This document shows, in pieces, positions 17,946-58,019 of a DNA stretch of 64,000 bases. The notes beneath the pieces were generated by a model. The model made no database searches. It was not told the origin of the DNA and saw only the letters and a list, made by a program, of their open reading frames with translations. This DNA is from Nereocystis luetkeana (Eukaryota > Sar > Phaeophyceae > Laminariales > Laminariaceae). Position 1 is the stretch's first letter, and each line of letters opens with the position of its first letter. The position numbers were made by a program, and so were the translations under genes. The stretch covers positions 248,001-312,000 of the forward strand of contig JARUPZ010000011.1 of the NCBI GenBank assembly GCA_031213475.1, written 5' to 3'.

Positions 17946-18029
17946 CTCCCAAACCACTAGCTGAGTTCCCTTCAAAATGTGTGACGCCATCAATGTCGAG
18001 GAAGGACCCGTCAACGATCACAATCGCAC
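17946..18029 (-). CDS. Beta-helix repeat exon (84 bp, one pmp-like rung)
   Basis: Acceptor CCAACCGGCAG is followed by exactly 84 bp, then donor GTGAGG. The first two bases complete a split glycine codon (phase 1). The product reads GAIVIVDGSFLDIDG then VTHFEGNSASGLG, ending in a new split glycine. It has the family pattern: Gly-Ala-aliphatic at the start, a central hydrophobic strand, F-x-x-N-x-A near residue 18-23, and Gly-Gly across the intron. It would form one coil of a right-handed beta-helix in a secreted or surface protein. No stop or frame break is seen. Confidence 0.75.
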
Positions 18030-19630
18030 CTGCCGGTTGGCAAACGAGATCGTGTGCGAGTGCGGGTATTCTGCGGAAACGAAAAGAAGGCCCGTGATAT
18101 ATTCTACAGCTAGCTAGATACTGGAGCTATTTTATCGTGGCACAGATCCTCTAGCACCGAGTGAAACAAACACCCCTTTCGTGCGACAATACTGGGGGGA
18201 CTACGATTTCGAAAATCGTTCCCGAGGGTGCGACTCTGCCAATAGGCTACACAATCACATCCACAGCTTTGCACGGAAATCATACATGAGAGTTCTATGG
18301 AGTGGAAGTTGAAGCAAGGCACCTTCTCGAGGGTAGAACTGGCGGCAGCGAGAGAAATAGTAGTACGTCAGGGTTCAAAACGGTCGCTGGCATTATTTTT
18401 TAACTCTGTAGGGAGGATACCGCCAGTAGTTCAACTAAATCAGCGTTCAAGGGTTTGCTGGTGCCCCGTGTTTTCTCTGTATGTTTCGCAGACACTGCAG
18501 GAGTGTGCGGCTCAAACCATTTCCCCACCCGCCATGATAACTCTTCCAACATACTTTAGGAATGGTGTGTCTACTATTGCAACACCACGATTAAACCACA
18601 TGCGAGATACGCTGCTCGTGTGTACGCCCACCTGCGTCATTGTACTATGCTGCACACTCGCCGCCGCCGTGTATGGCACACTCTAGGACTGACACTGAGT
18701 ATTGGTACGGGTGACTCCACCCTGGCGTCATCCACCTCTCGTCACTGTCATCTGAATGCCGGGCTCGAGTCTAGAGAAAACACTGGGAAACCGTACTAAA
18801 ATATATTTCGGCAGGACGAGAAACATCCTCTTTTTTTCCGGGCGGGCCATCTTTATCGTTGGATTGATGGTGTCACTCGTATGCATGAGGATATACTGCA
18901 GCTACACCTTAAAGTTGGCAATAGTTCAACTAAATGTATACATGATCTCTCCTGTGCCTCACGCATCTGGGGTCCGCACGACAGGCGGGCGTTGATTGTA
19001 CTCATGCCCTTGATATACATTGTAAGGACAGGGTACCACTATCCAGTAGGGTTAGGGGAGCACGAACATACAAGCATTTTTCTTAAATGTATATGCTGTG
19101 GAGTTTTTGTGAAGTAGCACACGTCGGCAGTAGCCAGCAGGATCGGTTCAAACAAAGCAGAGCGCCACAGAAGTAGTATGGGTTAGTAGTAGCAGCAGTA
19201 GAAGTAGTAGCAGTACTGCTAGTAGCAGATGCCGTATCAATAGTAGAATGAGAACCAGAAGTAGCGGACATACATACCTGGTACAGCGTGAAACTGCATC
19301 GATCTTCTCAGCCTGATGAATAGGTCTAATCACATGGGGTCGCCACCCTTGGGGCACTCGGGTCAGTCACACTTGGAACATATAGTATGCAAGTTTGGTA
19401 AGCCTTTGTAAGACTTCCGCAGCAGAAGCAAAGCCTAGCCCACTGGCGGACAGCACGCCATTACTGGTCATTGTTGCTGCATTTTGTACGGCAAGTGTGG
19501 TAGCATATCCGTCAAGGCATAGTCCTGCCTATTGCTACTATCACTAAATTATGAACAGCAACAGGTCGTACGTGACCAGCGTAACGAGGAAAAAGGAAAA
19601 ACAACATGGCGTAACAAATATGTTGCTCAC
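18030..19630. other. Intron or intergenic sequence; no supported gene
   Basis: Open frames of up to 129 residues (18,297-18,686 +) have no recognisable motif. A minus-strand frame at 19,148-19,357 ends in a poly-leucine stretch produced by a triplet repeat and is not convincing. If the beta-helix exons form one gene, this is an intron of about 1.6 kb. Confidence 0.4.
19172..19232. repeat. Imperfect GTA/GCA trinucleotide microsatellite
   Basis: About 60 bp are made of GTA, GCA and related triplets. On the minus strand this gives an artificial run of leucines. Confidence 0.85.
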
Positions 19631-19711
19631 CTCCTTTGCTCCCTGCCGAGTTGTTGCTAACATCGGTGACGCCGGAGAGGATAATTGAGCCTGCCCTACC
19701 GTGCATGGCAC
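19631..19711 (-). CDS. Beta-helix repeat exon (81 bp variant)
   Basis: The acceptor is CATCCGCAG and the donor is GTGAGC. The exon is 81 bp, one codon shorter than its siblings, but keeps phase 1 at both ends. It encodes GAMHGRAGSIILSGV then TDVSNNSAGSKG. The N-N-S-A box and the terminal split Gly-Gly are in place; the usual central phenylalanine is replaced by valine. The loss of one codon falls in a loop of the rung, so it should not disturb the fold. Confidence 0.72.
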
Positions 19712-20357
19712 CTGCGGATGTGGATAATGCATCTGTTAAATACTACACCCAGCGCAATGAGTCGCCTTTCAATTTCCCCCCGCCCTAACAATTGGTTAAC
19801 GGACCCCGATATCACCTGCTGCCGGTAATCATAATTAAAACTCGTGTGATTTTATTGCCGGGAACAATTTCCTTCGGTAAAGGCAGTTTAAATAACGTCG
19901 TCAAACTCAGTAATTTACATAGACGACTCGCTTGGCTCTATCATGGCCGCAATATCATGTTAAAAAAATACTGTCCAAGTCAATGGTGGTCAACACAATG
20001 GCAACTTCGAAGTACTGTAATGGTTAGCCGTTAACATCGATGACCAACAATCGACGGGCATTGTACACGTAAAAATATTTCCATTGACAACCGTCGGCAT
20101 TAACGATCTGGACAATATTTTTCTTAGACGATATCCGAAACCTGCATTCCGGACAATTGGTATTGCAGTAGTGATGTGCGTAAGGCCGAATAAAAATACG
20201 GCAGCCACTAAAGACATGGCGGTCAAGAACGGTTGTCATGGCTTGAAACCTGACGGGGACAGGTACCGCTCTGTAGAGAGCCGGGGCTTATTGTGTAGGG
20301 CGGATACGACCGTACTCACCCTATTTTTCCGCCCTAAAATCACTCCAAACACCTAGG

Positions 20358-20360
<3 letters not shown>

Positions 20361-20402
<42 letters not shown>
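20361..20402. repeat. TA dinucleotide microsatellite, 42 bp
   Basis: A perfect TA run of 21 units. It creates alternating Tyr-Ile open frames on the minus strand, which are artefacts. Confidence 0.97.
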
Positions 20403-20407
<5 letters not shown>

Positions 20408-20503
20408 ATACAGATATATACATACAAGTTTTCCCTTCGGAGTGGCATGAGCGTAGCGTGTAAGAAGACTCTTGCCGAAATACGTATTTGGTGGGTTGGT
20501 TTG

Positions 20504-20506
<3 letters not shown>

Positions 20507-20535
<29 letters not shown>
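20507..20535. repeat. TA dinucleotide microsatellite, 29 bp
   Basis: A perfect TA run, 105 bp from the longer TA tract at 20,361-20,402. Confidence 0.97.
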
Positions 20536-20539
<4 letters not shown>

Positions 20540-21057
20540 ACACATGAATATAGTCTACGAGGGGGGCCACGCCTCGACGCGCTGAAGCCCGCCTGCGGCT
20601 TCGCGTGTGCGCGGAATGGTGAATGATGTCACAGGCAAACAGAAGCAGTTAGCGCAACAAGAGTTGGTGCCAAGGGATTCAAAACTGTATATCGGTGCTG
20701 AGTCAAGGGTAGAAGAGGAAAATCGAAACCAACAAAAACGATACCACACTTACTTCTGGTCATGAACAGGGCCGAAGAAAAACACACTACTAGCGCGCGT
20801 TTCAAAACCTTTTGAGTACAGAGAATAACAGGTTTGGAGAGAGAGAAAATGAAACCACATTAATAAACACTCGGCTAGAGGAAGTCGTTGATCATTATAC
20901 GTTTAGTACCCAAACCGACAAAGTGCATAAACAGTACGTAAGTCAAACAAGCCGAATTATTAGTAAGGAGTTATTTACGTTTGGGTTTTTTGTTTTCGAA
21001 ATGTCAAATTTTGAACAGCTGGCGTCCTGGTCATCGCTCAGATCGTATCGATATTTC

Positions 21058-21333
21058 TTATGCAGTCGAAGAAAAGAATTGGGATTTGTTGTGTAGTATC
21101 GGCAGCATGTCTTGGTGTATGGAGGGCCGACCTTCGGGAGAAACACTGTCCATGCCGAAGCTCCGAATTCTTTCCAGGGCTAAACGAGCCGCCCCCGCCC
21201 TCCGCGCGTCGTCGCGCGTCGTTTCTTCATTCTGTTCATCCGACGCGTCGTCGCCGTCGTCGTCGAAGAGGAAGCGCCAAGTGCTCCGAGAAAAGAGGTG
21301 TGCTGTGCCGTGCTGCGGTTGTTGTGCGTGCGC
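21058..21333 (-). CDS. Candidate coding exon, acidic and Arg-rich, unassigned
   Basis: A GC-rich island with a minus-strand frame open for about 92 codons to a stop at 21,058. It begins at a plausible acceptor (GCCTTGACCTCAG); no ATG precedes it in frame. It encodes a Gln/His-rich start, WRFLFDDDGDDASDEQNEET, an Ala/Arg helix (RRAGAARLALERIRSF), then SPEGRPSIHQDMLP. High GC at third positions contrasts with the AT-rich flanks and resembles real coding sequence. The plus strand is also open over the same interval and holds a Ser/Lys-rich frame, so the strand is not certain. Function unknown; it may be a transposase or nuclear-protein fragment. Confidence 0.35.
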   Translation of the reverse strand, partial: AHAQQPQHGTAHLFSRSTWRFLFDDDGDDASDEQNEETTRDDARRAGAARLALERIRSFGMDSVSPEGRPSIHQDMLPILHNKSQFFSSTA

Positions 21334-21821
21334 CACTGAGGTCAAGGCCGACTAAACACTAAACGACAGCAAAAAAAGCAGTCACCCGCAAAATGCCATC
21401 AACACCCCCGACCTCATCAGGACCCATTTGTCCAACCAAGATGCGTAGTGATTACTGTCTGTGGTGATTCCCCGCACAACCCTGCGTCGGCGGTAGTACA
21501 GTTCCGGTAGTATAGGTCGGGTGCTGTTCCGTTGTGGCGGGGTTGTGCGGTTGGGGGGGGTTGAATTACGTGGAAAACCACCTGATTTCGTGTGATACCG
21601 CCTCCCATGTAATGGGTAACGTGCCATTCCCAATCGACATTTGCTCGGTTCGATGTGATAGGACTTCCGAAGCGAGACATTGTTTCAAAATTCTTCCGAT
21701 TGAAAAAAAAAAGATCTGAGCCGTTCGGATCCATTAATTTCGTACTGCGCAAGAAGCTTATCTGTTTTTTTCACTTCGAAATGAAGATCCTTTTTAAACA
21801 GCTACAGTGAGGCGTTCTACG

Positions 21822-22060
21822 ATACGTAGAGGTTCACCCTATATTTTCTGAGGCTCGCCACTGAAGGAGCTTCATACCTCACCGGAAGGCTTAAGGTTAA
21901 CCCAAAACTCGAAGAGCATCGCCACGAATAATCCTATGGCCCAATTATACCAAAGCGTTGCTTTTCGAAACAAGATTGGCATTCCGACGATTTTTGCTCA
22001 AGGAACTTCGTCCTTCAGAAACATTTCGGCGGAAATATGCTGCCTTTATCGTAAACACTG
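21822..22060 (+). repeat. Interspersed repeat family B, copy 2
   Basis: Direct-orientation partner of 15,588-15,835, with the same ordered landmarks (AGAGGTTCACCCTAT, ATACCTCACCGG, ATTCCGACGATTTT, CTTCAGAAACA). Divergence looks like 25-30% by eye. Confidence 0.75.
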
Positions 22061-22970
22061 TTTCTAATGGGTAGATAATCCGAGGCCGTACAAGGTCGAT
22101 GGTTGGGGGCAAAGAGTGTAGCATGTCAACCATGGAAGATGATTGTTTACAACACATTTTTGTCGTCGGTTCCGCGTTGCACACCATGCCCGAGATTGAT
22201 GGTCGATGTATATACTGGAAGGTAGCCCAACCAAGGAGTCCATACTTAACTGTGTACTACATATATGCACAGGCAACACTAATTATCAAAGTACACAAAC
22301 CTAGGCCGTGCGAAAAAGAAACAAAATTAGGTGGGACTCGAACCCATTTGTGATGTCGGAAGGTATGTTCACAAACTCCTCTGCTGAATGTCAGTAACGT
22401 GCGTCCTTCCTTACCGGTCAAAAACCTGCAGTATAAAAAGGTGCAAAACCAAACGTGAACAGCCTGAATTTGGAACCCCGACGGATCTGGTCGTCGTTCT
22501 AGTGATCCAACCGAAAAGTTACCAGGTGCTCGGCATTGTTGGAGATCGCCTCTGAAAATGATGGCGACCGATTTTCCGAACCGATCAGCACAAAAAAATG
22601 ATCTCGATCTTTTGGGCGATGCTTGGAAAAATTGGCGATGTGGATTGTGACGATCTGCACTGTCGATCATTGAGAAATTCGGGTGAACTGTACACCATTT
22701 TGTCGGTGGCGAGTGGCGAGCAGGAAGACATATTTTTGTTTTCTTATTCATCACCTTCACCTTCAAGCTTTACTGGTAGGAGGTTTCACCCTCAGCGGTC
22801 TTCTTCTGGACAAGCCGTGGTCACAGGTGTCGTCCCTTCTCCCCCCCGGTTCGTGCTGTCTTTTTGGTCGCGCATAGGGTTCGGCATTTCCACTGCTCGT
22901 CGACTTTAACCGAATGTAGCTCAGTCACGCTTTTGCGCTTTCCGCTACGGGATGGTTTTGTTCGGATGAA
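22061..22970. other. No supported gene; one tRNA-type B-box
   Basis: A 169-residue minus-strand frame (22,257-22,766) carries no recognisable domain. On the minus strand near 22,335-22,350 there is GGGTTCGAGTCCCACC, a near-perfect RNA polymerase III B-box. It is preceded by a weak A-box-like CAGCAGAGGAG about 45 bases upstream. It does not fold as a full tRNA. Confidence 0.35.
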
Positions 22971-23063
22971 GGCGTCCTTGCGAGTATGCACTCGTTAAGA
23001 CTTGAACCCGCGAAATTGACCTCAGTATGCACGCCGGACCACCTGCTAGGCCACCGGGGACGC
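22971..23063 (-). repeat. tRNA-like or SINE-like sequence
   Basis: The minus strand reads GGCGTCCCCGGTGGCCTAGC, containing a full A-box (TGGCCTAGCAGGTGG). This is followed about 45 bases later by a B-box-like GGGTTCAAGTCTT and, at the end, GGACGCC, which pairs perfectly with the first seven bases. The T-stem does not pair, so this is not a normal tRNA. A tRNA-derived SINE head or a decayed tRNA pseudogene is more likely. Confidence 0.4.
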
Positions 23064-24107
23064 CGACAGTGACCCAAAACAAATTCCATGTGTTTTCAAC
23101 ATATTTCTTCCATAATGGGTACCAGGGTATTTATTTTCGACTAAGCGTGGTGTGTGGTCTGATGTGCTGCTCTTTGTGCATGCTGGAGCAAGAAAATATG
23201 TGTTTTCCAGTGACATGGTAAGGCATTTTCGGGGCTGGGAGTGAAATAAATATCAAAATACTCGCGATCTTCGTTCTTTCTATCTCCATCTTGATTAATG
23301 ATCAACAATATGGGACAATATAAAGCGATTTCAATCTCCAGAAGAATAGATAACTCGCTATTCAGAATCGGTAATTCGGTCTCTCTATCACCAACACTAC
23401 ATTGACGCCATACTGTATCTAAACGAAGGCCAAAACAATATATCTCATGTGGTACGCACACATGTTTCTCGGGGGTCGTGGTCCTGGGAGTGAAGGGAAT
23501 CGAATCGAGGTCCTCTTATATTCTGATGTGTACGGATCTTTAGGGTGGCAGGCTGTTCAGATATTTTGCGTTTGTTGAGATCAAGGTACGAGCGAAGACC
23601 CAACTCAACCCCCAAGGGCCCGTCTTGTCGAGGACATTTTTTTCCCATTTGATTTATTTTTGTTCTCTATTTTAGTTCGCCTCTGATTGGCCGAAGTGTG
23701 AATCACCAAGCAAAGATTCTCAAGGAAAAAACAAAACAAAACAGCGCTATTGTCGGTTAGCCTTTGAACGTTTAACGGGCTTGAAGTTGCCAATTTCCAT
23801 TGCCGCTGCCGTTGATTTGTTTTCGATGCCTTCCGGAGATGACCACGATACATCCAAGGTCGTCGTTCATGGAGTACCTGAAGTCTTTGTCGTGCTGAGA
23901 AGCAACCGCTTGAACTCGTGTGTCTATGCTGTTGATGCTCACAAGCTTGGTTGAACTGGAGCCAATACAGGTGTCAGCACGGCCAACGTTGCTTCTGTTG
24001 ATTGTGGTCGGCATTGCAATATCGACGACTAAAGCTGCGGCGTTTGCCTGAACTGAATGCCCCTGGTCGAACGAAACATGTTGTGTTGCAAGCTACACTC
24101 AGGGCAC
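23064..24107. other. No supported gene; contains a dispersed 60-bp repeat
   Basis: Open frames up to 106 residues (23,141-23,461 -) show nothing recognisable. The segment 23,555-23,615 recurs at 48,167-48,223 and is annotated separately. Confidence 0.35.
23555..23615 (+). repeat. Dispersed repeat family C, copy 1
   Basis: The run GTTGAGATCAAGGTACGAGC and the following AAGACCCAACTCAACCCC align closely with 48,167-48,223. The sequence next to each copy is unrelated. Confidence 0.7.
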
Positions 24108-25332: not shown

Positions 25333-26018
25333 CTTGTAAGAACTCTGGAGCGGTGATCAAATTGACTTTCTTTTCGACTCCTCTGAAATGTGTACTGGTG
25401 GGCTCGATAGCCGGACTTTGAAATGTATGCACATCGATGACTAGCATCCCTTCCGTATGCGCGCAAATCGGTTAGGTGCCGAGTCACCCCACGGTAGGGG
25501 TTGCACGTTTTGGGCCGAAGGTTTCTGACCGACTGAGTTCCCTAAATAAATGAGGAACCAGCAGTTGATATGAAAAAGTTACTCGTATATTCGTTCTATG
25601 ACTAGCGCATAGAAGTGCCGGTCGGTGGCGCGAATAATTTTCTTTCAAGTACTGTATCGGGTGAAATATTGAGCTCCTGATGTGGGGGGCTCAGGAGCTT
25701 CTGGTGCACCCCTACCGTGGAACAACAGGTTTGCTATTAATAGCAATTTTTGTTTGTACAATGTGCTCTTTTATATTAATAATGAGCCCTCGTACGCACG
25801 ATCCAAAACAAGGACGGCGTACATATCCGCCTCGCAGCGGATTGGGTGGGGTTTAACCGTCGGGCATCTTTTCCTACAGTATTCTCGCATCTACAATATA
25901 CTTTGTTCCATGAACATTGGTTCGCTTCTCCGTTGGTACAGTTTGGGTATTATATATATACAACGCTCATTTTGGTCATCATGACATTCTATCGTGACTG
26001 GTTCGTCCGTGGTATGTT
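25333..26018. other. No supported gene
   Basis: Only short open frames are present (up to 100 residues at 25,682-25,984 +), with no recognisable motif. Confidence 0.35.
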
Positions 26019-26663: not shown

Positions 26664-26877
26664 AACTCTTGTCCATACAATGCTTCTTACGTAGAATACC
26701 AAATGAACATGATGGTCTCTCGTGAGATTGGGCCACACTAAAGGCTTCGTCTGTATACGCAAATATCTAACATGGCATGAGACAATATCAATTCGGAAAC
26801 AGATAATCTCTATACAGTGTCGGAGGTAGAACATTCTAAAACCCAGTGCACACATAATATTCGTAAGCGCCTCATAC

Positions 26878-26961
26878 CTCCGCATATTCCCGCATGGTTG
26901 TCGAAGAAAGAGAGGTGGCCATAGAGTCTTACGGTTGATCCTAATAGCGAACTTAAGGCAC
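26878..26961 (-). CDS. Beta-helix repeat exon (84 bp, one pmp-like rung)
   Basis: Acceptor GCTACCAGCAG, 84 bp, donor GTATGA; phase 1 at both ends. It encodes GALSSLLGSTVRLYG then HLSFFDNHAGICG and ends in the split Gly-Gly. The L-S-F-F-D-N-x-A box is the best-conserved part of the family. The frame is clean. It lies 1.1 kb below the 28,057 exon on the same strand, as expected of consecutive repeat exons. Confidence 0.75.
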
Positions 26962-28056: not shown

Positions 28057-28140
28057 CTCCTAGGCCTGTCGCTATATTGCTGAGGAAACTTATGTTGCCG
28101 TCGAAAACGGCTACGGAATCCCCAATCGCCTCGAAGGCAC
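28057..28140 (-). CDS. Beta-helix repeat exon (84 bp, one pmp-like rung)
   Basis: Acceptor CATATATTCAG, 84 bp, donor GTGAGA; phase 1 at both ends. It encodes GAFEAIGDSVAVFDGN then ISFLSNIATGLG, closing with the split Gly-Gly. All family positions are present: G-A-F at the start, V-x-V-F strand, N-I-S-F-L-x-N. Only about 620 bp of intron separate it from the 28,761 exon, the shortest spacing in the series, suggesting these two are true neighbours in one transcript. Confidence 0.77.
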
Positions 28141-28760: not shown

Positions 28761-28844
28761 CTCCGTTTCCCATGGCTTCATTTTTTACAAACGACACGGT
28801 GCCCTCGATGTTGACCGACCCATTTGTGATCGTACTGATGGCAC
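28761..28844 (-). CDS. Beta-helix repeat exon (84 bp, one pmp-like rung)
   Basis: Acceptor ACACGCCCGCAG, 84 bp, donor GTGAGA; phase 1 at both ends. It encodes GAISTITNGSVNIEG then TVSFVKNEAMGNG and ends in the split Gly-Gly. The frame continues open beyond the donor for some codons, but the GGAG/GTGAGA junction is strong. The S-V-N-I strand and S-F-V-K-N-x-A box match the repeats at 40.9 and 47.4 kb. Confidence 0.78.
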
Positions 28845-40898: not shown

Positions 40899-40982
40899 CT
40901 GCATGTCCGCCGGCCATATTATTGACAAAACTGGTGTCGCCGGTGATGTTAATGGCAGTATTTGTCGTCGCGCTGACAGCAC
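40899..40982 (-). CDS. Beta-helix repeat exon (84 bp, one pmp-like rung)
   Basis: Acceptor CTGTCCCGCTTACAG, 84 bp, donor GTGAGA; phase 1 at both ends. It encodes GAVSATTNTAINITGD then TSFVNNMAGGHA and ends with the split glycine. It contains the classic T-x-F-V-N-N box. N-I-T is a potential N-glycosylation sequon, consistent with an extracellular protein. The frame is clean throughout. Confidence 0.8.
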
Positions 40983-42130: not shown

Positions 42131-42164
42131 ACACTTATAGATCGGGTTGGTGTCGGTTTGCAAG

Positions 42165-42900: not shown

Positions 42901-42949
42901 GACACACTCTCCGCAGGTCGACCTTGAGGTCCCGCCTCATTCGGGAATG

Positions 42950-44805: not shown

Positions 44806-44889
44806 CTCCATCAGCCCCGGCTTCGTTGTCCCGAAAAGATATGTTACCTCCAAGCCGCAGGGAAGAGTAGGCACTCACATATACAGCTC
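44806..44889 (-). CDS. Beta-helix repeat exon (84 bp, one pmp-like rung)
   Basis: Acceptor TGTTTTCTGGCCACAG, 84 bp, donor GTAAGA; phase 1 at both ends. It encodes GAVYVSAYSSLRLGGN then ISFRDNEAGADG and ends in the split Gly-Gly. The S-L-R-L strand and N-I-S-F-R-D-N-x-A box are canonical, and G-A-V-Y-V is the commonest pmp repeat start. This is the clearest example of the one-repeat-per-exon design, with an excellent pyrimidine tract before the acceptor. Confidence 0.85.
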
Positions 44890-47235: not shown

Positions 47236-47427
47236 CTTGCATGTATGTACTCAAACCTAAGGGTTAGGGTTGACACCGGCTCCGCGGTCGTCGCATACAT
47301 TGCTACGATTAAAAACCGTTACAGCACACCATACGTAGCGAGGCACGTCTACTTCTCTGATGTTCGTGCAAGTGCAGCTTTCCAAACCACCCCTCTGCAA
47401 TACGACCTATTTGGCGACGTTTCGTAC

Positions 47428-47511
47428 CTCCTGCCTCCTCGGCTGTGTTGTTTAGAAAGGAGATGACGCCGTCTCCTTGCATGGTGGAGTTGTCGAACAA
47501 AGATATTGCAC
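47428..47511 (-). CDS. Beta-helix repeat exon (84 bp, one pmp-like rung)
   Basis: Acceptor GTGCCTACGCGCAG, 84 bp, donor GTACGA; phase 1 at both ends. It encodes GAISLFDNSTMQGDGV then ISFLNNTAEEAG and ends in the split Gly-Gly. F-L-N-N-T-A is the family consensus box, and N-S-T and N-N-T are potential N-glycosylation sites. This is the first intact repeat exon found downstream of exon 1 (57,545-58,019), 10 kb away. Others may exist in between that I missed. Confidence 0.82.
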
Positions 47512-48166
47512 CTGCGCGTAGGCACCATTTGTAGTGGAAGTTTTCAGACGGAATGTAACGAAGGCAGCCGGTGCACCACGGACTCGGCTATTCTAGCAAT
47601 ATTGCAGAACAACCTCAAAGTACCGATAGCGCATGACTCACATCGCGTGCCTCGGAGATGGAAAAAGTGCAACTTGACTCAGGTCATGCTGTTTTTGTTT
47701 TCATCCCACCCACCCATAGCGCCCGAATATCCTAGAAAAAAGCAATTGCGTACCTGGTTTAAATGTAGTGCGAGTGCTTCAGGTCGGTATGCGACCAGGG
47801 TTACCGTACCAGGTGAGAGCAAAGTGAAAGCACGTTGTACGTGTGTGTTGACCAATACATATATTAGTGAAACACCAGTAGTTGATCAACTAAAGGTTTG
47901 GGTTGATTAGGTTGTGAGCTCTACTAGCTCTAATATTACTCTATTATATTCGGAGTATAGGTTTACTATCCATAGACATGAATACTATGTATGGGTGTAT
48001 CTATCTGTGGGACGAGAAGGTATCCCATCGAAAGAGTGCACTTAGCATTCGAGAGTATCATACTATGTGTACTACAGTACGAAAATGAACATCAGCCGCA
48101 GACGCCCAAAGTACTCGAGGTCCTATTACAGTCTGGGAGAAGGGATATGTAGGTTTGTAGACTGTT
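47512..48166. other. No supported gene
   Basis: A 134-residue plus frame (47,506-47,910) has no recognisable motif and partly overlaps the repeat exon on the other strand. Confidence 0.35.
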
Positions 48167-48265
48167 CAGGTGTTTTGGTTCCTGTTGAGATCAAGGTACG
48201 GGTGAGGACTCAACCCGACCCCTAACTCTAGCCCTAACTCCAACCCTAACCCAAACCTCAAACCG
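48167..48265 (+). repeat. Repeat family C, copy 2, with degenerate telomere-like CCCTAA run
   Basis: 48,167-48,223 matches 23,555-23,615 (GTTGAGATCAAGGTACGGGT core). It is directly followed by CCCTAACTCTAGCCCTAACT, CCAACCCTAACCC and CAAACC, a degenerate array resembling telomere repeats of the CCCTAA type. Confidence 0.65.
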
Positions 48266-49372
48266 CACCCAAAACGGGTCAAACCTCGCCATAAACGCGG
48301 CTGCGCCGCGTTTGCATTAAACCAGGAAATTTCTCAACTGCGGATGACGATTCCGAAGTGTAGACCATGCTACGCATTTTTCCGGTCGAAAACTTCCCTG
48401 AAGATCCCTTCTCCCAGATTGCTAAAACTACTCGAGGAATCGAGCTATTAATATCTACACTCTATCATACTAATCGGGAAAATTTCTTAACCCTAAACCG
48501 TTCTCCGCCAAGAGGAGTACAACCGAGCCACCAACTGTCGAGATTGGGCAACCAAAGATGCCGACAATACAAGGAAGAAAATTAGCACGAAAAAGCTACT
48601 GGTCTACCGCTAGCGACTCGCCAGATCTCATCACCCCGGAATATATCCCCAAATTTTAACCTCGGGCGGATATTTGTGGCTAACAGGAGATGGGTGCTGA
48701 GTGAGTGCGGAAACAGTAAGAATCTGTAAACTACTTTTAAACTACACACCCTGTACTCATAGTACGCCCTGCCCAATATTCACACACAGCCCGCGAACAT
48801 GAGGTTCGAATAGTTATTCCTCTCATAGCCGATGATAATTTCAACTTTCTATCAAGGAAAGAGTATTGGTATATGATATCAGGTACTACTGTATATACAT
48901 ACGAGTACCACAGCAGGCGTATATATATATCAGATATAGTCTACGAGCACTCGTAACTCCAATAATAATAGTCCTAGTTTTTAAGTGTCGCGAAGACGCG
49001 GTGGCGCACTCGAAAGCTGTACTGCGATATCATACTACGATGTTTAATCCCTTGACTAACAGCTCCCCCCCGCAGCATTACGGGGGGCTATACAGTACCT
49101 GGTAGGTCAGAATCCACGGTTGACCCAAGCGTATTGTACCTTCCTATGTTCACACCCTATATTTATTTGTTTACACACTGTATCAATTTCTGATCGTCAT
49201 ACTCCCCCGTAGTTGGGATGGGAAAGGCTAAGGTCATGCGACTACGACCTCGCAGAACACGAGTTCACCCCCCTCCCTACATGTTTCACCAACGTAAACC
49301 ACTCTTATGGTATTCCATGGAATGTCCATACAAACGTGTGGGTGCCGTTGTGCAATAATAGAGGCCTTCACG
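48266..49372. other. No supported gene
   Basis: Open frames of 64-79 residues on both strands, with no recognisable motif. Confidence 0.35.
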
Positions 49373-49459
49373 CGCCGAACTTAACCCCTTTCTGTTTCGA
49401 GAGGGGAACATTGACACGTGGCGAAAGCAGCAACGGACACTGCGTGTTGAGGAATGCTC
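49373..49459 (-). pseudogene. Probable decayed beta-helix repeat exon
   Basis: The minus strand reads GAFLNTQCPLLLSPR then VNVPLSKQKGVKFG in the family phase, with the G-A-F start and a terminal glycine. The acceptor region (GTGTGGAG) and donor region (GGCGCGTGAAG) look like damaged versions of CAG/GT and GGAG/GTGAAG. The F-x-x-N-x-A box is lost. The length is 87 bp. Confidence 0.38.
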
Positions 49460-51805
49460 CACACCGGTACAAATTGGTGTCCGAGTGGCATGCAAGGAGG
49501 GGAGTCGCAATCACGGCGCAAACGCTGGGTGTTCACACTGTTCGTACACGGTCGGTACTGCTAACGGTATCATTGTCTCGGCCGCTATTCAATGATTTTC
49601 GCAACGAATAAGATGTGTACTCGTATCACCTTTATATACCGATACGCTTCGGACGATTGGCACTTAACCGGCATTAACCCCTTTGATAAGATGTAGGTGA
49701 GGGTCCCAATTTAGGATTATGATTATCTCGGCATTCCTCGAGATTTTTCCCGTGCGGTTAAATCCGGGATTTTATGCTGGATTCGGCTTAATCCAGTGAT
49801 CTCATGATTATTGTGAAACCCCTTGCCCGCACAAACCCCTGCCGGCCAACTGAAAATTTCCCGTTCCCGCATAAATACGTCTGGCACAAAGTGAGACAAA
49901 GAACAACCCCTAGCTGACTGTTTGCACTTCTTGTGCGGACTGCTACAACTCTCAAAAAAAATCCGCTTCGAACGATTTTGAGTCACGTTTCGAATGAGGT
50001 GTGTGAAGGCATCCGACGCACCACGTCGCAGTCGAAATCAGACGTCAGCCCAAAATGCCACTGTCTCGTGATAAATGTTGAATATCGTGCCCGTACAAAC
50101 GCGTCCCGCATTAATTATCACATCCTGCGCCCGTGCAACGGAAGAGTGTGAATCACACCGCCGCAAAAACACGTCCAGCGGTGACAACAGCCCATGCAAA
50201 CCGTCCTGTTTAGTCTCGGGGGAACTGAGTCACGTGGGATATCGTCCCAGAGTCGAAATTGCGTCTCGAAGAATGCCCAGATAGTTACCGATGTTATTTT
50301 TCAGCTATAACCGTCGAAGGTCCTAACACACTACGATACGAAGTCCCTACGGTGCCTCAAAGCCGAGTTGGCGCAATAAATTAACTCCCCATGACGAACT
50401 CCCCATGTACACCCACACACAAGCGTTATCCTGCTAATGTCATTCACCGCCGTTGTCGTAATAGTTATGATGTGTGCCTCTAGCTTAAAGGAAGTGGAAG
50501 CAACACCCCTGCGCTACGGCCGCGAAACGCTTTGAAGACGTTTACAGACGCCTGGAACACGATGGTTTAACTATCATTAAGAGGAGGACGGAGCAGTCAA
50601 GGCCCAGCAAAGCAATGTGATTGTCAACCTGTGTCAGTGTAATCCGTGGTTGGCACCGTAATACCTGTTTGCGCGAAGAAGGTTCACAACCGGCAGTTGA
50701 TGTACAGAATTCTAGATGAAATTGTTACGAGACCAAAATCGCCCGCGGGCTGTACTGAGAGCGCGAGGCTTCATGCGTGTTGCCGAAAACACGGTGAACA
50801 TGTTCACATAATAAGTTGGTCTATGATGTTGGGGAAGTAACTTGTGGATGTAGTTCGGCGTCTTGAACCGGCATCATACTCGTGGTCACTGACACCTCTT
50901 GCGTGACGCGAGATCCTCGATGGCGATCTCCAGACCAGAGTATTCCTGCCATGGCGTTGTCTTTTGCCGGCGTCGCAGATTCAGTACGCGCTTTCTACGT
51001 GTTGAGTAGACAGGAGGTAAACCAGGTTGTGAGTGGTCACGCAGAAGGCAACCTGATGACCCTGAATTCCTCATTACGCAAGCTTACGATGTTGAAGCGG
51101 TACGTGAGGTGTCGTTATCACCCCCCATAAGGCAATACGCATCAACACCGTGGTTTTCTTCACTCAAAGGATGATATCTGGATGTGGGAGGATGAGCGAG
51201 AAGCAAGCCTTTTATTACCAGTGGTCGAAGTGGTCGGGGTTTGTACCGCTAAAACCCGTGATTTAGATGACCATATTGGCAACGCTGCCTCATATTAGAA
51301 GAATACATTCAAAACATGTGTGCCTCTTGTACGCAGGAGAAGTGACATGTGGCCTCTAACCGGTTCGGATATATAGGTGGGACCTTTCAAGGCGAGGCAG
51401 TCATACCAGCTCTTTTAACCAGAAACGAACGTCTCAAACCAAGGCAAAAGCACAAAATACGGTATTATTTGTGCAAAACCTCGATCATCCGGGAGGCTTC
51501 AGAGCGATTTTTTGCTGGCCGAGAATGAGCGTTAAGTCCCTCGCCAAAGACCGATGTACATGATATTATATATACCCGGCCGTCATATCTTATCATTCGA
51601 AGTATGTTTTTCATGGCCCCAGCCATACACCTACCAAAACGCCGATGACGTCGTCCTGGCCTACCAACCGGATACATACATAACGTTGCATCCCCCTTTA
51701 AGTTAACCATACACTTGCACCACGTATTCCAAGGCCTTGAATAGTTGTCAAACAGTACGACCTCCATGGTGGGAGTTCTTGTGAACCCTTTGCAAACTTA
51801 CTTAC
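49460..51805. other. No firmly supported gene
   Basis: The plus frame 49,213-49,611 (132 residues) overlaps the decayed exon and is unassigned. The minus frame 51,465-51,767 (100 residues, starting MEVVLFDNYSRPW) has an ATG and an F-D-N-Y-S box slightly like a repeat rung, but no matching splice sites. The interval includes many small open frames and nothing I recognise. Confidence 0.3.
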
Positions 51806-52001
51806 GGCGCACCAAACCGCATTTCGTGCAAGACAGGCTTGCGGTATGGAGGCCACGCGCTACTTGCGTAATACGTGTCCTTTTGTCAGACCTCCCCAGA
51901 GTTTTTTCGTACTCAAAGTGCGAACATGCGTCAGGAAATGGTTGAACAACCGTGTCGTTAAGGTTTAGTACTCCGATGTGAAGCCACTGTTCAAGGCAGT
52001 A
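51806..52001 (-). CDS. Candidate internal exon, unassigned, about 65 residues
   Basis: The minus-strand frame runs from an acceptor (CTCCGTGTAG at 52,002, or TTGAACAG at 51,987) to a perfect donor, GTAAGT, in phase 1. It reads LEQWLHIGVLNLNDTVVQPF, PDACSHFEYEKTLGRSDKRT and RITQVARGLHTASLSCTKCG before the donor. The composition is convincingly protein-like and the frame is stop-free for 65 codons. It contains a C-x-x-C near the end. No family recognised. The donor phase equals that of the beta-helix exons, so it could belong to the same gene. Confidence 0.4.
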
Positions 52002-52582
52002 CTACACGGAGAGCTTGTTTATATGGGCGGAGGTTGAGCCGAGGTCTTGATTTTGTCGTGGTATCGGACAAGTTTCCCTGGTAGGATAAAACCTTACCGC
52101 GGGGAACGCCTTTATCGTCGCGTGCGCAACCACGAACAGGCGCAAACATGGCTGCATCTCACTTGAGTGTGTCTTCTGCACCTTAAATCATTCTTTCTAC
52201 TCGTCGGTATAAAGCACGAACAGTGTCCATGCCAAATCTTCAATCCTACAGTGAATACAAGCGCTGTGGTAACAAACCTACGACACGGAGATGCAAGATT
52301 GTTTTTCTGCAAGCAGCGAAAACAGTAGGATGACATATGTAATTGTACTCGATACGACAGGCACGGGATACACTGTAGATGAAAGATCAACAAATCGAAA
52401 AAAACCAAGGAAACAACTGGAACAACAACAAATTGAGAAGTTTCGTGCCCACTAGAAAAACGTGTGGCCGACAACAGACGAAAAAGCGAAATTACAAATA
52501 CCACCACATCACATCTAAACGAAGTAAGACTTAGAAGGTCAGGCAAAAACGGGAAACCGGAGCGCAACAAAAGAAAATATTA
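52002..52582. other. No supported gene
   Basis: A 152-residue minus frame (52,112-52,570) is rich in Phe, Ser and Cys and shows no domain. I see nothing else. Confidence 0.3.
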
Positions 52583-52882
52583 CTAGGCGATATGACAATA
52601 ATCTGCGGTTTGTTGTTGTAGAGAGAATGAGGCGTAATGGTTCATGTTCTTCGGCTGGACACATGTCAGTATAGCTTTCTTTGATAGCAGCAGCGGGCAC
52701 TGTCTGGTTGATCGCGCTTGCGGGACTACAAAGTAGATACCGCACGGCACGGTGCTGGCAGATTGGTTGAACACGCGAACAGACAGGGCCCGTGGCTTGC
52801 ACCTGGACAGCGGTCCCTCGCTGGGCCCCAGGTATTCGTGAGTTTTCCCGGCAGCCGCAGTAGTTTGTGGTACGAGTGGCAT
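52583..52882 (-). CDS. Open frame of 99 residues, unassigned
   Basis: The minus-strand frame starts at ATG (MPLVPQTTAAAGKTHEYLGP), continues SEGPLSRCKPRALSVRVFNQ and SASTVPCGIYFVVPQARSTR, and ends in a Gln-rich tail and TAG. The first 60 codons are GC-rich at third positions. Its start overlaps a 70-bp repeat that recurs at 53,405, next to the LINE remnant. It may therefore be part of a mobile element rather than a host gene. Confidence 0.3.
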   Translation of the reverse strand: MPLVPQTTAAAGKTHEYLGPSEGPLSRCKPRALSVRVFNQSASTVPCGIYFVVPQARSTRQCPLLLSKKAILTCVQPKNMNHYASFSLQQQTADYCHIA

Positions 52883-53475
52883 AGACAGGTTCTAGATACT
52901 AATCGGTCTGGTACCTTGCTCTTCTTTCTGCCCTCTCTATTCTTATTTTCTCAACCATGCCCCGCCCCCGGAAAAGGATGCGTCAGGTAATCAGGCAATA
53001 AAAGCCCCCAAAACAGGCTCTTCATTCAGCCACTAAATAAATACGACTTCCATTCACAAGGACAGGAAGGAAGACAGGTAAACAATACGTTACAAACAGT
53101 AGCAGCAAATATTACACACTATCAAAATTCGGGAAACAAATGAAACAAGGAACTTCACGTGCGGGAGAACAGCAAGCGAAGGCAAGAAGTAACCTCAACA
53201 AAGAGCTTGAAATTATTACAAAAGGTTGTAGCATGGGTTTCGTACCGCCATGGAGAAACTGCTCCGGATTGTACAATAAACAAAGACATCGAAATAATAA
53301 GAGAAAAAAAGAACCACCGAGACGAACATCAAGAACAACAAATAACAAGAATATCAACGTAAAGGGAAAATAATATCAAAACACAACAGCGTCGCATTCG
53401 AAAAAGCCGGGGAGGATTGCGGTACGAGTAGCCTAGACAGGTTCACCTTACTAGTCGGTCTGGTACGTCGCTCGC
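52855..53475. repeat. Direct repeats flanking about 480 bp
   Basis: 52,862-52,925 and 53,412-53,475 share GGTACGAGT, then TAGACAGGTTC, then CGGTCTGGTAC, at the same spacing (about 550 bp offset). The second copy lies just beyond the 3' end of the minus-strand LINE remnant and may be its tail. Confidence 0.6.
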
Positions 53476-53570
53476 TATCGGCTGTTTTTTTCCTGCTTTC
53501 GTCATTCCCGGTTGCCTTGGGATTGTTGACCTCCCCCTTTCCATTTCTTTCGGCACCACCCGCCTTCGAT

Positions 53571-54520
53571 CAATGTCGCTCTCTACTCAGCTCCGCCTTT
53601 ATAATTTTCCTTTTGACCATGAACCATTCGGTTGATTTGATAACCCCTCCGGTACCAATTAATTGCCCACCTCCTTTGTCGCGAGATCCACACCGCGATA
53701 TCTACTCCAACCATCAACGGGGTATGTACCGTCAACCCCTTGGTGGCTCGAACCACCTCGAGGTCTTCAATAAGGTAGCTGTGCCAAGTGTTCAACTGCT
53801 CGGCCTCCGGCCCTACCGCCAGTCATCATCTCCAACATCGCCCAATAGGGTAATCGCCCCTTGTGTTGCCGCAGCAATGCCCCCACACTAACGAGCCTCT
53901 TTTAAGGAGTGACCGTTACGATGATCTCGCAGCGTGTCTTCTCGAGGTCGTCCAGTACGAAAGGATCGTGCAGTCGCCATGCTATCGGCGCCGGACGCCA
54001 GATCCGTAGGAAATCTCACTGGTGCACCGATCGGAGCCTGGCGAAGTGTTGGGCACTGAACCTCCACGCCCCCGGCTGTGCAGTAGGGTCTCAATCATCT
54101 CAGCTTTCAACATGCGGGCGTTGAGACAAAGCGGGGGCGTCTTCATATTGTTCAGCTCCGTACCGATCCGTTGGAGGCATGACCACATAAGGCGGATACG
54201 CTATCCGATTTTGAGCGAAAGGTAAGCGCCATAGAGAAAAATGCCACCGATGTAAAGGAACTGGGTCGTCCGTCTCTACCTTTGGCCGGCTGTTTCGATC
54301 ACGAGCGGTAAAGCACTTGATTTCTGGTTCCGTGTTCGTAGGAGCATCGCCCTTGCCTTTCGTTCCGAAACAGTAAGGCTTGCTGCTTCGAAGACAGTCG
54401 TGCTGGCCTTTAAAACATTTTACCAAGCCTCGGCCGGGATCGATACCATTACTGCATACTCAGCGTACAACATGCACAACACTGCCCTTCGCACGCATGT
54501 CCATGGCACAATTTTCACGA
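53571..54520 (-). pseudogene. Decayed non-LTR (LINE) retrotransposon: 3' part of reverse transcriptase
   Basis: Minus-strand fragments follow the order of a common stramenopile LINE: MLYAEYAVMVSIPAEAW (about 54,425-54,473), the catalytic YADD region; SLTVSERKARAMLLRT, then PLVIETAGQR (54,300-54,390); TTQFLYIGGI (about 54,270); LCLNARMLKAEMIETLLH (54,070-54,125). In a new frame come HFARLRSVH and LEKTRCEIIVTV, then RQHKGRLPYWAMLEMM. Finally AEQLNTWHSYLIEDLEVVRA runs to the stop at 53,583. The catalytic aspartates are changed (YAEY), and there are three in-frame stops and at least two frameshifts. The copy is inactive. The 5' half was not found. Confidence 0.85.
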
Positions 54521-55004
54521 GCCCCACATCCTCATAAAAGTGGGCCAATTTTCTTGCTATGATTCCCCACTGTTGAGGCTAACTAGAACAACGTGTATCG
54601 CCTCACCAATGAACACGTTAAATAGCAACAGCGGCAGGACGCCTTAGTCGTAGAGTGGGTGACACCAAACGATTCTGAGTGATCTCGATCATCTGTACGC
54701 AAGCAAGCCAACATACTGTCATGATAATGGAAAATGTATGTATGCATTGAAGGCTGACACGCCAAAGCTTGTGGGTACCACGGCAGCTCTTGGTCCACAG
54801 AGTCTTACGTTTTCTGTGGGTCAATAAAACACATGCACAAGGAGATGCTTCTCGATCGAGTGTTTGCAATCTTCGCACGACAAACAGCATGTCGACTGCG
54901 ATTCGCGCCGGACAAAGACCGCACTGTTCCTTAGTTAGGGAGTATGCCTCGATCCTTGCACTATTTGCCAACGCGGGACGCTGAAATTTCCAACAACACT
55001 CTGC
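54521..55004. other. No supported gene
   Basis: The minus frame 54,618-54,971 (117 residues) and a plus frame of 71 residues overlap; neither has a recognisable motif. Confidence 0.3.
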
Positions 55005-55364
55005 CTACACCAACAAAAGTCGAATTGAATGCGTAGTTGTGGCAATCAGATCGATCCTTATTTTGGCGAAGGATGTGTTGTAATTTTTGTGGGACTTCTC
55101 CAAGTCGTAGGACGACCCCTGGCATAGTTCATGGATGAACCCATGGGGTAAGATACTTTCAACAACGGTGTGCGTAATCGGCAATCCCCCGGACTGGCTT
55201 GGTCGATTCCATACTTTTACAATGATACACATCACGGCCTGCCCTACGACTGGGGTCAGGTTCAGTCCATGGCTCTCCCAAAGGTCAACCCCACCGGTCG
55301 CACATATATGATATATTCGTAGGATAATACACCGTTGTATGGGATACATTTTGCAGCTTGCCAT
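55005..55364 (-). CDS. Open frame of 119 residues, unassigned
   Basis: The frame starts at ATG (MASCKMYPIQRCIILRIYHI) and continues through GGVDLWESHGLNLTPVVGQA and SGGLPITHTVVESILPHGFI to a stop at 55,005. Adjacent minus-strand frames (55,262-55,483; 55,414-55,623; 55,557-55,754) are also open, so the whole 55.0-55.75 kb interval could be coding with introns. No domain recognised. If the beta-helix exons form one gene, this lies in its first intron. Confidence 0.25.
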   Translation of the reverse strand: MASCKMYPIQRCIILRIYHICATGGVDLWESHGLNLTPVVGQAVMCIIVKVWNRPSQSGGLPITHTVVESILPHGFIHELCQGSSYDLEKSHKNYNTSFAKIRIDLIATTTHSIRLLLV

Positions 55365-56044
55365 GCGAAGGTTACTCCACTGTGTACACCTTGGAATGTC
55401 ACGATAGCTGCGATTATGTCGTGGTCTTCTCCAGTATATGATGAATGGTGATATTGCGCTCCCCGGGCTCTCCTATGGAACATGGTCCTAATGAATGGTC
55501 CGTGACACGTTTGATGAGGCTACCACGGATATATATTTCGCTTGTTAATTGTGTGTTCATCGAACAATGTTGTGGCGGCGGTGTTGGAGCGAAATAATAC
55601 AATGGATCGAGGCTGGCTCGCACGACGCATTGGGTGCAGATACGGGAAGGTGTTTTCTATGGGTTGAAGAAGGGGGTTTCATCCGACCGACGGTGTTACT
55701 CGACGAATCGTAACAACATTCCCAGGCAGTTGCGCGTGCTGTATGCTGCGACACCCTGGGAGATTCCAGTGGTATTCAACCCGAGGCCTGCGGAATAAAA
55801 AGGAAATTAGTCGCTACTAACAGGGCATTTAGCCCGCATACCCGTATTACGATCTCAATCGCGAGTCTCGTGAAGGTTGTGAATAACTTTCAATCTGGAT
55901 TCATGACCGGTTGCTCCCTATTGGTAGTACACCTGCACTGAAGCCAGAAATATTCTGGATGCCATCTGCCATATGCCATAACTCCAAGGAGCGCAAGCAA
56001 AGAACCCCTTAGTGGGGCAGATCGGACGCTTCCCGTAATTACCA

Positions 56045-56480
56045 TCCATGCGACTGGTCATGGGGCGTCATATAGACGCTTCCATATAAGCAAACCATGG
56101 TCCACCCTTTGGACGGAATCGATTCATGGAACGTACGATGGTGAATACGCCATGTAGCCAACCATGAGTCGCTTCATTGCATTGTACGTGCTACATTGCA
56201 TGTGCCAGGTACGCATTTTTCCGTGAGTCTACCCATGGACGAAATGCCCACGGTTCCAAGATCGATAACCATGGCAGAAACCTTGGCGTGATGCATGGGT
56301 TGCCATGCACTACACCATGGGTCACGTGCACCCTATGGAATGACCCATGGCGCCGTCCACAGGCCCATGGTTGGTGATATGGACCACAAAATGGGCCAAC
56401 ATGTCATGATCGCCCACGGTGGACCGTCAGCTTACTCATGATCGACTATGGGTTGGTCCATGAGCTGGCCCATGGAATAT
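56045..56480. repeat. Palindromic minisatellite rich in CCATGG
   Basis: CCATGG or CATGG/CCATG recurs more than fifteen times (for example ACCATGGTCCACC, ACCCATGGACG, AACCATGGCAG, CACCATGGGTCAC, GACCCATGGCG, GGCCCATGGTTGG, GGCCCATGGAAT) at irregular spacing of 15-40 bp. The core is self-complementary, so many alternative hairpins are possible. Confidence 0.8.
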
Positions 56481-56484
56481 CCAT

Positions 56485-56838
56485 TTAAGTTGAGCACTTT
56501 AGTGAGAAAGTTCGTGAGAAGTGGAATTGAACATATATAGTCATTTTGTAACCAATCGCGCCATCGCAAGTCCACACCAAAAACAAACGCCGTCGCGATA
56601 CGAAGCCTCTAGACTCGAACAAACTGCAGGAACGCAGGAATAGATCGAGGGTTAAATGGTGGTGTTGACAGTAAATGACTGTCGCGGATGGCACCGCTGC
56701 AGGGGTCGATGGCACGAGTGACGAACACCGTGTGAGGTTGGCACGGGCGCCTTTGGGGTTGGTGCTCAAGTCCACTCCAACCAAACCGACACCCCAGCCA
56801 TAGTACTCGTGACGACGGTCGGCCTGAAGGGCTGCCAA
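56485..56838 (-). CDS. Open frame of 117 residues, unassigned
   Basis: The minus-strand frame (56,485-56,838) and a second frame over the same DNA (reading QPHTVFVTRAIDPCSGAIRD) are both open. Ser, Pro, Leu and Cys are frequent. Neither has a domain I recognise. Treat as a candidate only. Confidence 0.2.
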   Translation of the reverse strand: MAALQADRRHEYYGWGVGLVGVDLSTNPKGARANLTRCSSLVPSTPAAVPSATVIYCQHHHLTLDLFLRSCSLFESRGFVSRRRLFLVWTCDGAIGYKMTIYVQFHFSRTFSLKCST

Positions 56839-56909
56839 CCTCAGAGGTCTACAAGCTGTGCCTTGATCAAATTGTTTGCTACTTTATATTGTTTGTTGAT
56901 ATCACGGTT

Positions 56910-57137
56910 TCAAGGTTTTCGTAAGGCTTTTAAAATGTTTGTGCTGTTAAAACCTGTCCTCAGCAAAAGCAGACCCTCAAGATGTTTACGACAATAATAG
57001 AGAAAATACAGCACACCTGCTCCAAAAAAACATATTCCAAACACAAAAATTGGTCTACGCGATATATCCAAAGTTGATGATAGTACAACAGACGCAAAGG
57101 CTAAGGTGACGCACAACAAGCATGGGATATTTGACAC
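56910..57137 (-). CDS. Candidate exon encoding a hydrophobic membrane segment
   Basis: The minus-strand frame has no ATG but follows a TCTAG acceptor-like site. It reads IPCLLCVTLAFASVVLSSTL, then DISRRPIFVFGICFFGAGVL and YFLYYCRKHLEGLLLL, ending at TGA near 56,910. Two clear hydrophobic segments are separated by a basic turn, the profile of a two-pass membrane protein or of a signal-anchor plus one helix. It lies 0.4 kb downstream of exon 1 of the beta-helix gene on the same strand. It could be an alternative C-terminal membrane exon of that gene, but the phase could not be fixed. Confidence 0.33.
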   Translation of the reverse strand: MSNIPCLLCVTLAFASVVLSSTLDISRRPIFVFGICFFGAGVLYFLYYCRKHLEGLLLLRTGFNSTNILKALRKP

Positions 57138-57544
57138 AACCAATCGAGAAAACTAGACTAGAATATTCTCAATATAGGGCAAGTATAGACATGCTGCGTC
57201 GAGATCTGGAAATATAACCGCACAACAACTTCATCTGCCAGGAATATCCCATAAATGAGGCCGCTTTGGATGACGCTGAACGATGGATTCAATTTTACCG
57301 GAGGCGCAGACTGCTTTGTTTGCATGTGGTGGCGAGTTCCCCTTTCCATGTGTGAGTACCATACAGTAGATCGGTATATGACGTAGGGTTGCTACAGCAA
57401 TATGGGCTGTCAACAAAGCATACATGCAATCAATCACCACGGCCTAGTATGAGTACTACGGGGACATGCGAACTGACCATCCCGAGATCTTGCTCACTTC
57501 CTGGTCTACACAGTAAGAAAACCATCTCTAATCTGATGTCTCAC

Positions 57545-58019
57545 CTCCGTTCGAAGCAGTGTTGTTGATGAAGATGCAGTCGAATACAAAGAGGGAGCTG
57601 GAAGAATACACGTTAACTGCACCCCCATTTTCGGCGCTCCCGCCCTCGAGCACCACGTCGATGAGGTAGAGAGAAGATCCGTTAGATACGGAGAATATAC
57701 CACTTCCAGCTCCAGCATTGACGGCACCGGCACCGGTATCGAGTAGCCCACCACGAATGCTAGGAAAGCCGACCCCAGTGACCGCGACGTCTTTCAAGTC
57801 AGACACTCTGATATTCTCAGTAATGTCCATGCTGGAGTACCAGGTGATGTCAAACGCACCCATACCATAGCAGGCTAGCGCGTCAGTCAGATTCTGGAGA
57901 TCGGCTGTGGAAGTGACGTTGACTTGAACAGTACTCGATGGGCACGGGGCTGAATCTGCTCCGAACAGGAAGGAGACGACCAACCCTACCATCACTAGCG
58001 CCATGACATCGGACGTCAT
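57545..58019 (-). CDS. Exon 1 of a secreted pmp-like beta-helix protein
   Basis: ATG at 58,019; 475 bp (158 codons plus one base, phase 1) to a strong donor, GGAG/GTGAGA. The protein starts MTSDVMALVMVGLVVSFLFG with ADSA before a PC pair, a clear signal peptide. A region with Asn/Thr-rich strands follows (VQVNVTSTADLQNLTDALAC; ITENIRVSDLKDVAVTGVGF). Then come beta-helix turns: GIFSVSNGSSLYLIDVVLEG, GSAENGGAVNVYSSS and FDCIFINNTASNG, which ends in the split glycine. The GG-A-V-N-V and I-F-I-N-N-T-A-S-N-GG patterns are those of polymorphic outer-membrane protein repeats, common in brown algae. The next exon must begin with two bases of a glycine codon, exactly as all the 84-bp exons do. An in-frame GTG at 58,115 is a less likely start. 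Confidence 0.82.

Follow-up and report, generated by a model that had tools for sequence, protein, structure and literature searches.

One coil per exon: a candidate secreted Pmp-like beta-helix gene near a chromosome end of the brown alga Nereocystis luetkeana

A stretch of 64,000 nucleotides of the brown alga Nereocystis luetkeana (contig C11, JARUPZ010000011.1, positions 248001-312000 of the 465-Mb assembly GCA_031213475.1) raises the question of whether a repetitive secreted protein can be encoded one structural repeat at a time, each rung of a beta-helix on an exon of its own, and what such a design might do. This whole stretch is called the window here, and window positions count from its first letter. 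The locus probably represents the 5' part of a long gene whose product would be a secreted protein folded as a right-handed parallel beta-helix, with coils of the Chlamydia Pmp type; the close members of its family lie near telomeres.

Exon structure and fold family

All exons lie on the minus strand. Exon 1 (57545-58019, 475 bp) contains the start codon, a leader that is hydrophobic as judged by eye, an N-terminal part and the first beta-helix rungs, and ends in phase 1 at a GTGAG donor. It is followed by rung exons 1 (47428-47511), 2 (44806-44889), 3 (40899-40982), 4 (28761-28844), 5 (28057-28140) and 6 (26878-26961), each of 84 bp, by rung exon 7 (19631-19711, 81 bp) and by rung exon 8 (17946-18029, 84 bp), the final one within the window; all eight are of phase 1-1, and the introns of the locus reach 12 kb. 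A preliminary description, made from the letters of this DNA, had proposed precisely these eight exons with these lengths and phases, together with a first exon of matching phase bearing a signal peptide, and its exon model is recovered in full. A scan of the window for phase-1 segments bounded by AG and GT returns many chance segments besides the eight rung exons. Each rung exon is preceded by AG and followed by GT, completes a glycine codon at its start, opens another at its end and is free of stops. The donor, earlier described as GTGAG in most cases, has this form in five of the eight as well as in exon 1; the remaining three are GTACG, GTAAG and GTATG. The translations are 28-29 residues long, with G1, A2, G15, N22, A24 and G29 invariant on alignment, and exon 1 joined to the eight rung exons would give a stop-free protein of 381 residues if spliced as predicted.

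In chlamydial Pmps, strand PB1 begins after turn T3 with GGA(I,L,V), and FxxN marks the end of PB3, ahead of the same turn (PMC11166332). The present coils combine the same two motifs, and the joined protein passes the cut-offs of both Pmp-repeat profiles, scoring 60 bits against PF02415 (cut-off 20.6) over five stretches and 49.9 bits against TIGR01376 (cut-off 15). No single exon of the nine reaches the PF02415 cut-off (best 14.8 against 20.6), and the rise on joining is partly built in, since the borders were picked at GG|A, although neither profile was used in picking them. Across 59 distinct 84-bp exons the motifs recur as A2 in 54, I, L or V at position 3 in 50, F19 in 56, N22 in 59 and a final glycine in 59, the counts of border glycines being partly a product of how exons were chosen. 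Other Pfam families, LRR (leucine-rich repeat) and TPR (tetratricopeptide repeat) among them, are absent from the spliced 381-residue 5' part, where PF02415 is the only match. The introns fall inside turn T3; each exon therefore corresponds to one coil, from turn to turn, with glycine always at the junction. Unlike chlamydial Pmps, the gene is eukaryotic, has one-coil exons and shows no autotransporter barrel or middle domain in the part read. The leader and the Pmp-like helix together point to an extracellular protein, and the secreted beta-helix interpretation of the preliminary description is supported by the leader and by the scores of the joined protein.

Further support comes from a profile of 38 exons taken from C41, C20, C14 and C13 (11.157-11.185 Mb), from which this gene and its close paralogues were left out. 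These 38 exons were originally detected by a profile that started from the window exons, and the test is thus independent in sequence, not in discovery. In a six-frame search of the window the top seven matches (1.9-24.4 bits) are seven of the eight rung exons; rank eight is a rung within exon 1, and the 81-bp exon follows at -1.7 bits. Fifty dinucleotide shuffles of the window reach at most 1.4 bits, a value exceeded by every rung exon (rung exon 6 slightly, at 1.9 bits) except the 81-bp one, for which the support is an intact counterpart in C19 together with border-pattern matches in C4 and C13.

Recurrence and chromosomal position

The preliminary description had named recurrence of the 84-bp pattern in other Pmp-like genes of the genome as a test of its reading, and the pattern does recur. 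Used as a query against the genome, a single rung matches 32 places at E up to 10, its own included; four of the 32 are below 1e-5. In the stretches fetched, a profile gives 77 hits of at least 9 bits, all on the same strand as the nearest exon-1 match. Both AG and GT borders are present in 75 of them, where the search for GT was confined to the three in-frame positions yielding 84, 81 or 78 bp (63, 6 and 6 exons, respectively); the other two are an 81-bp hit without AG and a hit without GT. The coil exons found by profile comprise 72 distinct sequences. Among the 76 tabulated, the acceptor is CAG in 71, the donor GTRAG in 59, and an in-frame stop occurs in one. That exon (C13:11173865) has intact borders and is possibly decaying.

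When exon length was left free between 69 and 99 in a genome-wide border pattern (CAGGTGC-N61..91-GGAGGTRAG), 151 matches were obtained against 12 for the reversed pattern used as control; these matches are partly non-independent, 17 of them being on C10 and many of those near-copies. Among 100 listed of the 151, the implied length is 84 bp in 49, 81 bp in 30 and 78 bp in nine, and the other 12 show ten different lengths between 72 and 98. Of the 78-bp matches, two (C17:3993691, C20:6558187) look like chance. The borders at this locus and elsewhere in the genome uphold the earlier claim of one rung per exon in symmetric phase 1, and an artefact of chance or composition is rejected on the shuffle test, the border counts and the length-free pattern.

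The same coil repeat also occurs in single long frames. Five adjacent rungs of C20, joined into 139 residues, find 195 genome matches at E up to 1 (150 of 391 candidates scored), and the ten best sit in uninterrupted frames of 580-1220 residues. The top match aligns residues 1-139 of this query, at 45% identity (E 3.8e-19) and with no net gap, to an 807-residue frame on C22. Such Pmp-like frames, known here from alignments alone, are found on C2, C3, C5, C10, C22, C28 and C30 among others; those on C22 (2.2-2.5 Mb) and C10 (2.2 Mb) are more than 2 Mb from a contig end, and one on C30 is at 36-109 kb. They share the repeat with the one-coil exon genes but hold several coils per frame, and in terms of sequence they are an independent check on the predicted splicing and a natural comparison for the origin of the introns. 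A search of the unspliced genome with PF02415 (150 of 234 candidates scored) gave no match and carries no weight, because it also missed these uninterrupted relatives.

Two observations concern further Pmp-like frames. A region of C3 (15.80-16.79 Mb) contains 17 Pmp-like exon-1 matches on both strands, in open frames of 295-494 residues with room for several coils. A frame mostly of 1098 residues recurs with equal scores at C2:7931913 and on eleven small contigs (C809, C872, C1099, C1275, C1378, C1420, C1432, C1542, C1547, C1666 and C1766), which may reflect a mobile element or assembly duplicates.

The close relatives cluster near chromosome ends, a feature that, like the uninterrupted frames, the preliminary description does not mention. 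The exon-1 protein as query has 102 genome matches at E up to 10. Of the 26 with E up to 2e-28, a limit chosen after the match list had been viewed, 22 are no more than 0.5 Mb from a contig end; with the eight C22 copies taken as one and the two C14 copies as one, the figure is 17 of 18, with C13:5776444 as the exception. Given a null of 8.4%, which assumes 39 chromosome-sized contigs, the binomial probability of 17 of 18 is 8e-18, or about 1e-14 with the four close paralogues counted once. C41, being only 416 kb long, falls within the limit trivially; its near end, 36 kb off, is telomeric. For comparison, the genome has at least 150 EsV-1-7 motifs (150 of 1710 initial candidates scored) and 14 control genomes have none, in keeping with a brown alga, a group in which EsV-1-7 families are large; of the 105 of these 150 matches on contigs of known length, 14 lie within 0.5 Mb of an end. 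Repeats of TTAGGG, the telomere repeat reported for Ectocarpus (PMC11541908), are present at ten of the 14 contig ends read, all chosen beside family members: C6, C8, C11, C14, C19, C22, C27, C32, C37 and C41. The ends of C4, C13 and C20 are non-telomeric and that of C10 reads N.

Some end regions contain several copies. On C22 (171541-660483) eight equal-scoring exon-1 matches are spaced 61-63 kb apart with one gap of 117 kb, either as tandem copies of a gene region or as an assembly effect. C14 has two copies of one coil-exon gene in opposite orientation (38.6-48.8 kb and 76.2-84.4 kb), an inverted duplication near the telomere in which some exons are identical and others diverged.

Exon content, divergence and explanations

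The closest paralogues are those on C19, C13 and C4, whose exon-1 proteins are 87-88% identical to the window copy. C19 carries a counterpart of each of the eight rung exons, in unchanged order, and its introns can be aligned as well; in the loci of C4 and C13, which were partly fetched, six (rung exons 2-5, 7 and 8) and four (2, 4, 5 and 7) of the eight are seen in the same order. In 14 aligned blocks of C11 and C19, the rung exons contain no insertions or deletions and exon 1 a single one of three bases, whereas about 32 kb of aligned non-exon sequence shows 287 gap openings; substitution amounts to 9.2% across the nine exons and 13.8% elsewhere. Despite intron divergence of about 14%, both copies retain all nine exons with undamaged splice sites.

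Constraint is unevenly distributed within the coil. Positions were divided into core and variable by site conservation across the 59 distinct 84-bp rungs, those of these paralogues included. The proportion of nonsynonymous differences (pN) is 0.04-0.09 at core and 0.16-0.25 at variable positions, which shows that the coil core is under constraint. At variable sites the nonsynonymous rate (dN, 0.18-0.30) exceeds the synonymous rate (dS, 0.08-0.27) in five of six paralogue pairs, the exception being C11 with C4; the pairs overlap, no significance value attaches to the comparison, the 81-bp rung is excluded, and C4 contributes four rungs and C13 two. The rates outside the core fit diversifying selection, without proving it. 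Because the core residues are kept while the others change at a rate close to, or above, the neutral one, the product is likely to be a fast-diversifying extracellular protein of adhesion or recognition, a role suggested by Pmp biology together with the rates of change.

More distant relatives differ in exon content. In C41 and C20, three types of exon sequence succeed each other in order, on our reading; the best within-gene match lies three or four exons off for eight of 15 exons in C41 and five of 11 in C20, and mostly further off for the others. Within-gene repeated DNA pairs coil exons in 20 of 22 listed matches in C41 and 12 of 15 in C20, the remainder being intron repeats, and it usually extends 5-30 bases, at most about 60, past the exons. 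C41 has 15 exons and C20 has 13 (11, a weaker one at 10546671 and one at 10536453); matching by order identifies the two additional C41 exons as 376419 and 375719. On C10, a set of 81-, 84- and 84-bp exons occurs at 40.6, 48.0, 53.8 and 61.3 kb, nearly identical in the bases shown, and two of the three occur again at 68.7 kb. Each step of gain or loss in C41/C20 and C10 is a multiple of three. The earlier proposal that symmetric exons can be shuffled, duplicated or skipped is sustained in part: exons are gained and lost in frame between paralogues (C41 against C20, the C10 modules), but the exons seen in C11, C19, C4 and C13 keep one order and give no sign of shuffling at this locus.

The proposed mechanism links these features. 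Exon 1 would provide the signal peptide together with the beginning of the helix and its first rungs, and every later exon would provide exactly one coil, with introns placed at the glycine turn between coils (FxxNxA..GG|A), always after the first codon base. As the phase is uniformly 1 at this turn, any coil exon can follow any other with the frame kept. Recombination between introns could insert or delete exons, singly or in blocks, and leave the frame unchanged, and in a transcribed and spliced gene an exon added, lost or skipped would make the helix one coil longer or shorter with the core untouched. Exchange between chromosome ends probably drives the copying of whole genes (C11, C19, C4, C13), and probably also copies exon blocks (C41/C20, C10).

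A comparable design is known in brown algae from the LRR-ROCO genes, reportedly the subject also of Zambounis et al. in 2012. The ROCO genes have LRR exons of 72 bp in phase 2 with splice variants, and fast change at exposed positions has been proposed for them (Teng et al., 2024, PMC11378527); the parallel with LRR exon genes drawn in the preliminary description is supported. Both systems place one structural repeat on each symmetric exon, so that the number of repeats can change without a frameshift. They differ in that the present family has a beta-helix, exons of 84, 81 or 78 bp, phase 1 and a leader peptide, and the ROCO genes LRRs, 72 bp and phase 2. ROCO proteins carry a ROC-COR GTPase module, whereas none is found in the 381-residue part of this gene, and splice variants are documented for LRR-ROCO whereas the present gene is known here from genomic sequence. 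The combination that defines the LRR-ROCO and NB-TPR class (LRR or TPR with ROC-COR or NB-ARC) is likewise absent from the spliced 381 residues. Judged by sequence, the family shares its gene design with the ROCO genes, but differs in fold, exon length and phase and, over the part read, in its domains.

That the same design is found near telomeres in a separate family with a different, probably secreted fold suggests that this lineage has turned to symmetric repeat exons more than once, and it offers a second system for testing exon-based variety. Genes for large surface proteins near telomeres are familiar from other eukaryotes as the subtelomeric families var, VSG and FLO. The present family resembles them in encoding large repetitive surface or secreted proteins close to telomeres, but its variety lies in an intron-separated exon array, and we know of no switching or expression control for it. 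Among open-licence papers, searched by the titles and abstract openings ranked highest, none treats beta-helix genes with one coil per exon, which is weak evidence of absence.

What the exon design does for the protein can be explained in several ways. A constitutive adhesin of the extracellular matrix or cell wall, in which the design is a relic of the duplication of rung plus intron and has no role in variety, is possible though somewhat short of probable. It accords with the collinear exons of the closest paralogues and with the relatives that hold this repeat in long frames without interruption, which means that the fold does not need introns; it is harder to reconcile with the unequal exon numbers of C41 and C20, the near-identical three-exon blocks of C10 and variable positions whose rate of change is near neutral or higher. 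Alternatively, a single gene might yield a repertoire by including or skipping symmetric coil exons in many combinations, as in the ROCO LRR exons. The frame-neutral exons and that precedent with its splice variants (PMC11378527) would permit this, yet the strong and uniform CAG and GTRAG signals disfavour skipping and every rung position retains its own identity across paralogues, which makes such a repertoire rather unlikely. Most improbable is that these are decaying, unexpressed subtelomeric gene copies: the length of the introns (as much as 12 kb), the insertion in intron 1 of about 9 kb, pairwise dN/dS of up to 1.49 and the stop in the C13 relative could be read in that way, but nine exons and their splice sites persist in C11 and C19 across the diverged introns, the rung exons lack insertions and deletions, a stop occurs in only one of 76 tabulated exons, and core residues are conserved.

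The reading preferred here, of a telomere-proximal gene for a secreted Pmp-like beta-helix protein with fast-changing coils, also faces evidence that weighs against it. Sequence searches of solved structures in the PDB gave six matches with E of 0.12-0.6, taken as chance. The eight exon-1 matches next in strength are internal in seven cases, at least 2.6 Mb from an end (four on C9 and one each on C24, C25 and C26), and only that on C6 is close, at 21 kb. Rung dN/dS of 0.37-1.49 over the six paralogue pairs also fits relaxed constraint. Because the closest paralogues share their exon order, exon exchange appears rare at this locus over about 14% intron divergence. Finally, no convincing last or C-terminal exon or membrane anchor was seen at 18.1-10.7 kb of the window, the only stretch searched. 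A broader extension of the preferred reading is unlikely: that brown algae possess, in telomere-proximal arrays of one-coil exons, a second modular repertoire, in which exchange between ends would change the set of coils and splicing would choose among them, giving lineage- or individual-specific secreted beta-helix adhesins for recognition of self and non-self, mates or microbes.

Gene extent and intron features

The exons of the preliminary description stop at 17946, which is probably not the end of the gene. A further 81-bp coil exon (C11:220977-221065) is found 27 kb beyond the window, and like exons occur at C19:10693450, C4:15357431 and C13:11023261 in the three close paralogues, as well as at C14:17742 and C20:10526122. 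The outside exon is assigned to the same gene because it is on the same strand and the paralogues have the same arrangement; the gene thus probably runs on for about 27 kb past the window. The distance from exon 1 to this exon on C11 is 85 kb, and the gene would probably be about 85 kb long or more if the exon belongs to it. Candidates for a C-terminal exon at 18.1-10.7 kb, sought as phase-1 open frames common to C11 and C19, were rejected because they show no convincing domain.

Within intron 1, a segment of about 9 kb (48001-56856) is absent from the matching place in C19, where the flanking positions 56857 and 48000 adjoin each other at C19:10642432. A long, diverged minisatellite array with a unit of about 88 bp occupies 2979-9755, presumably in an intron of the same gene; similar repeats are present at C19:10678.5-10681.5 kb, so this is probably the same intron in both genes. 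Just upstream of exon 1, an element of about 110 bp (58189-58299) resembling a miniature inverted-repeat transposable element has matches at several places of C19, some in one orientation and some in the other.

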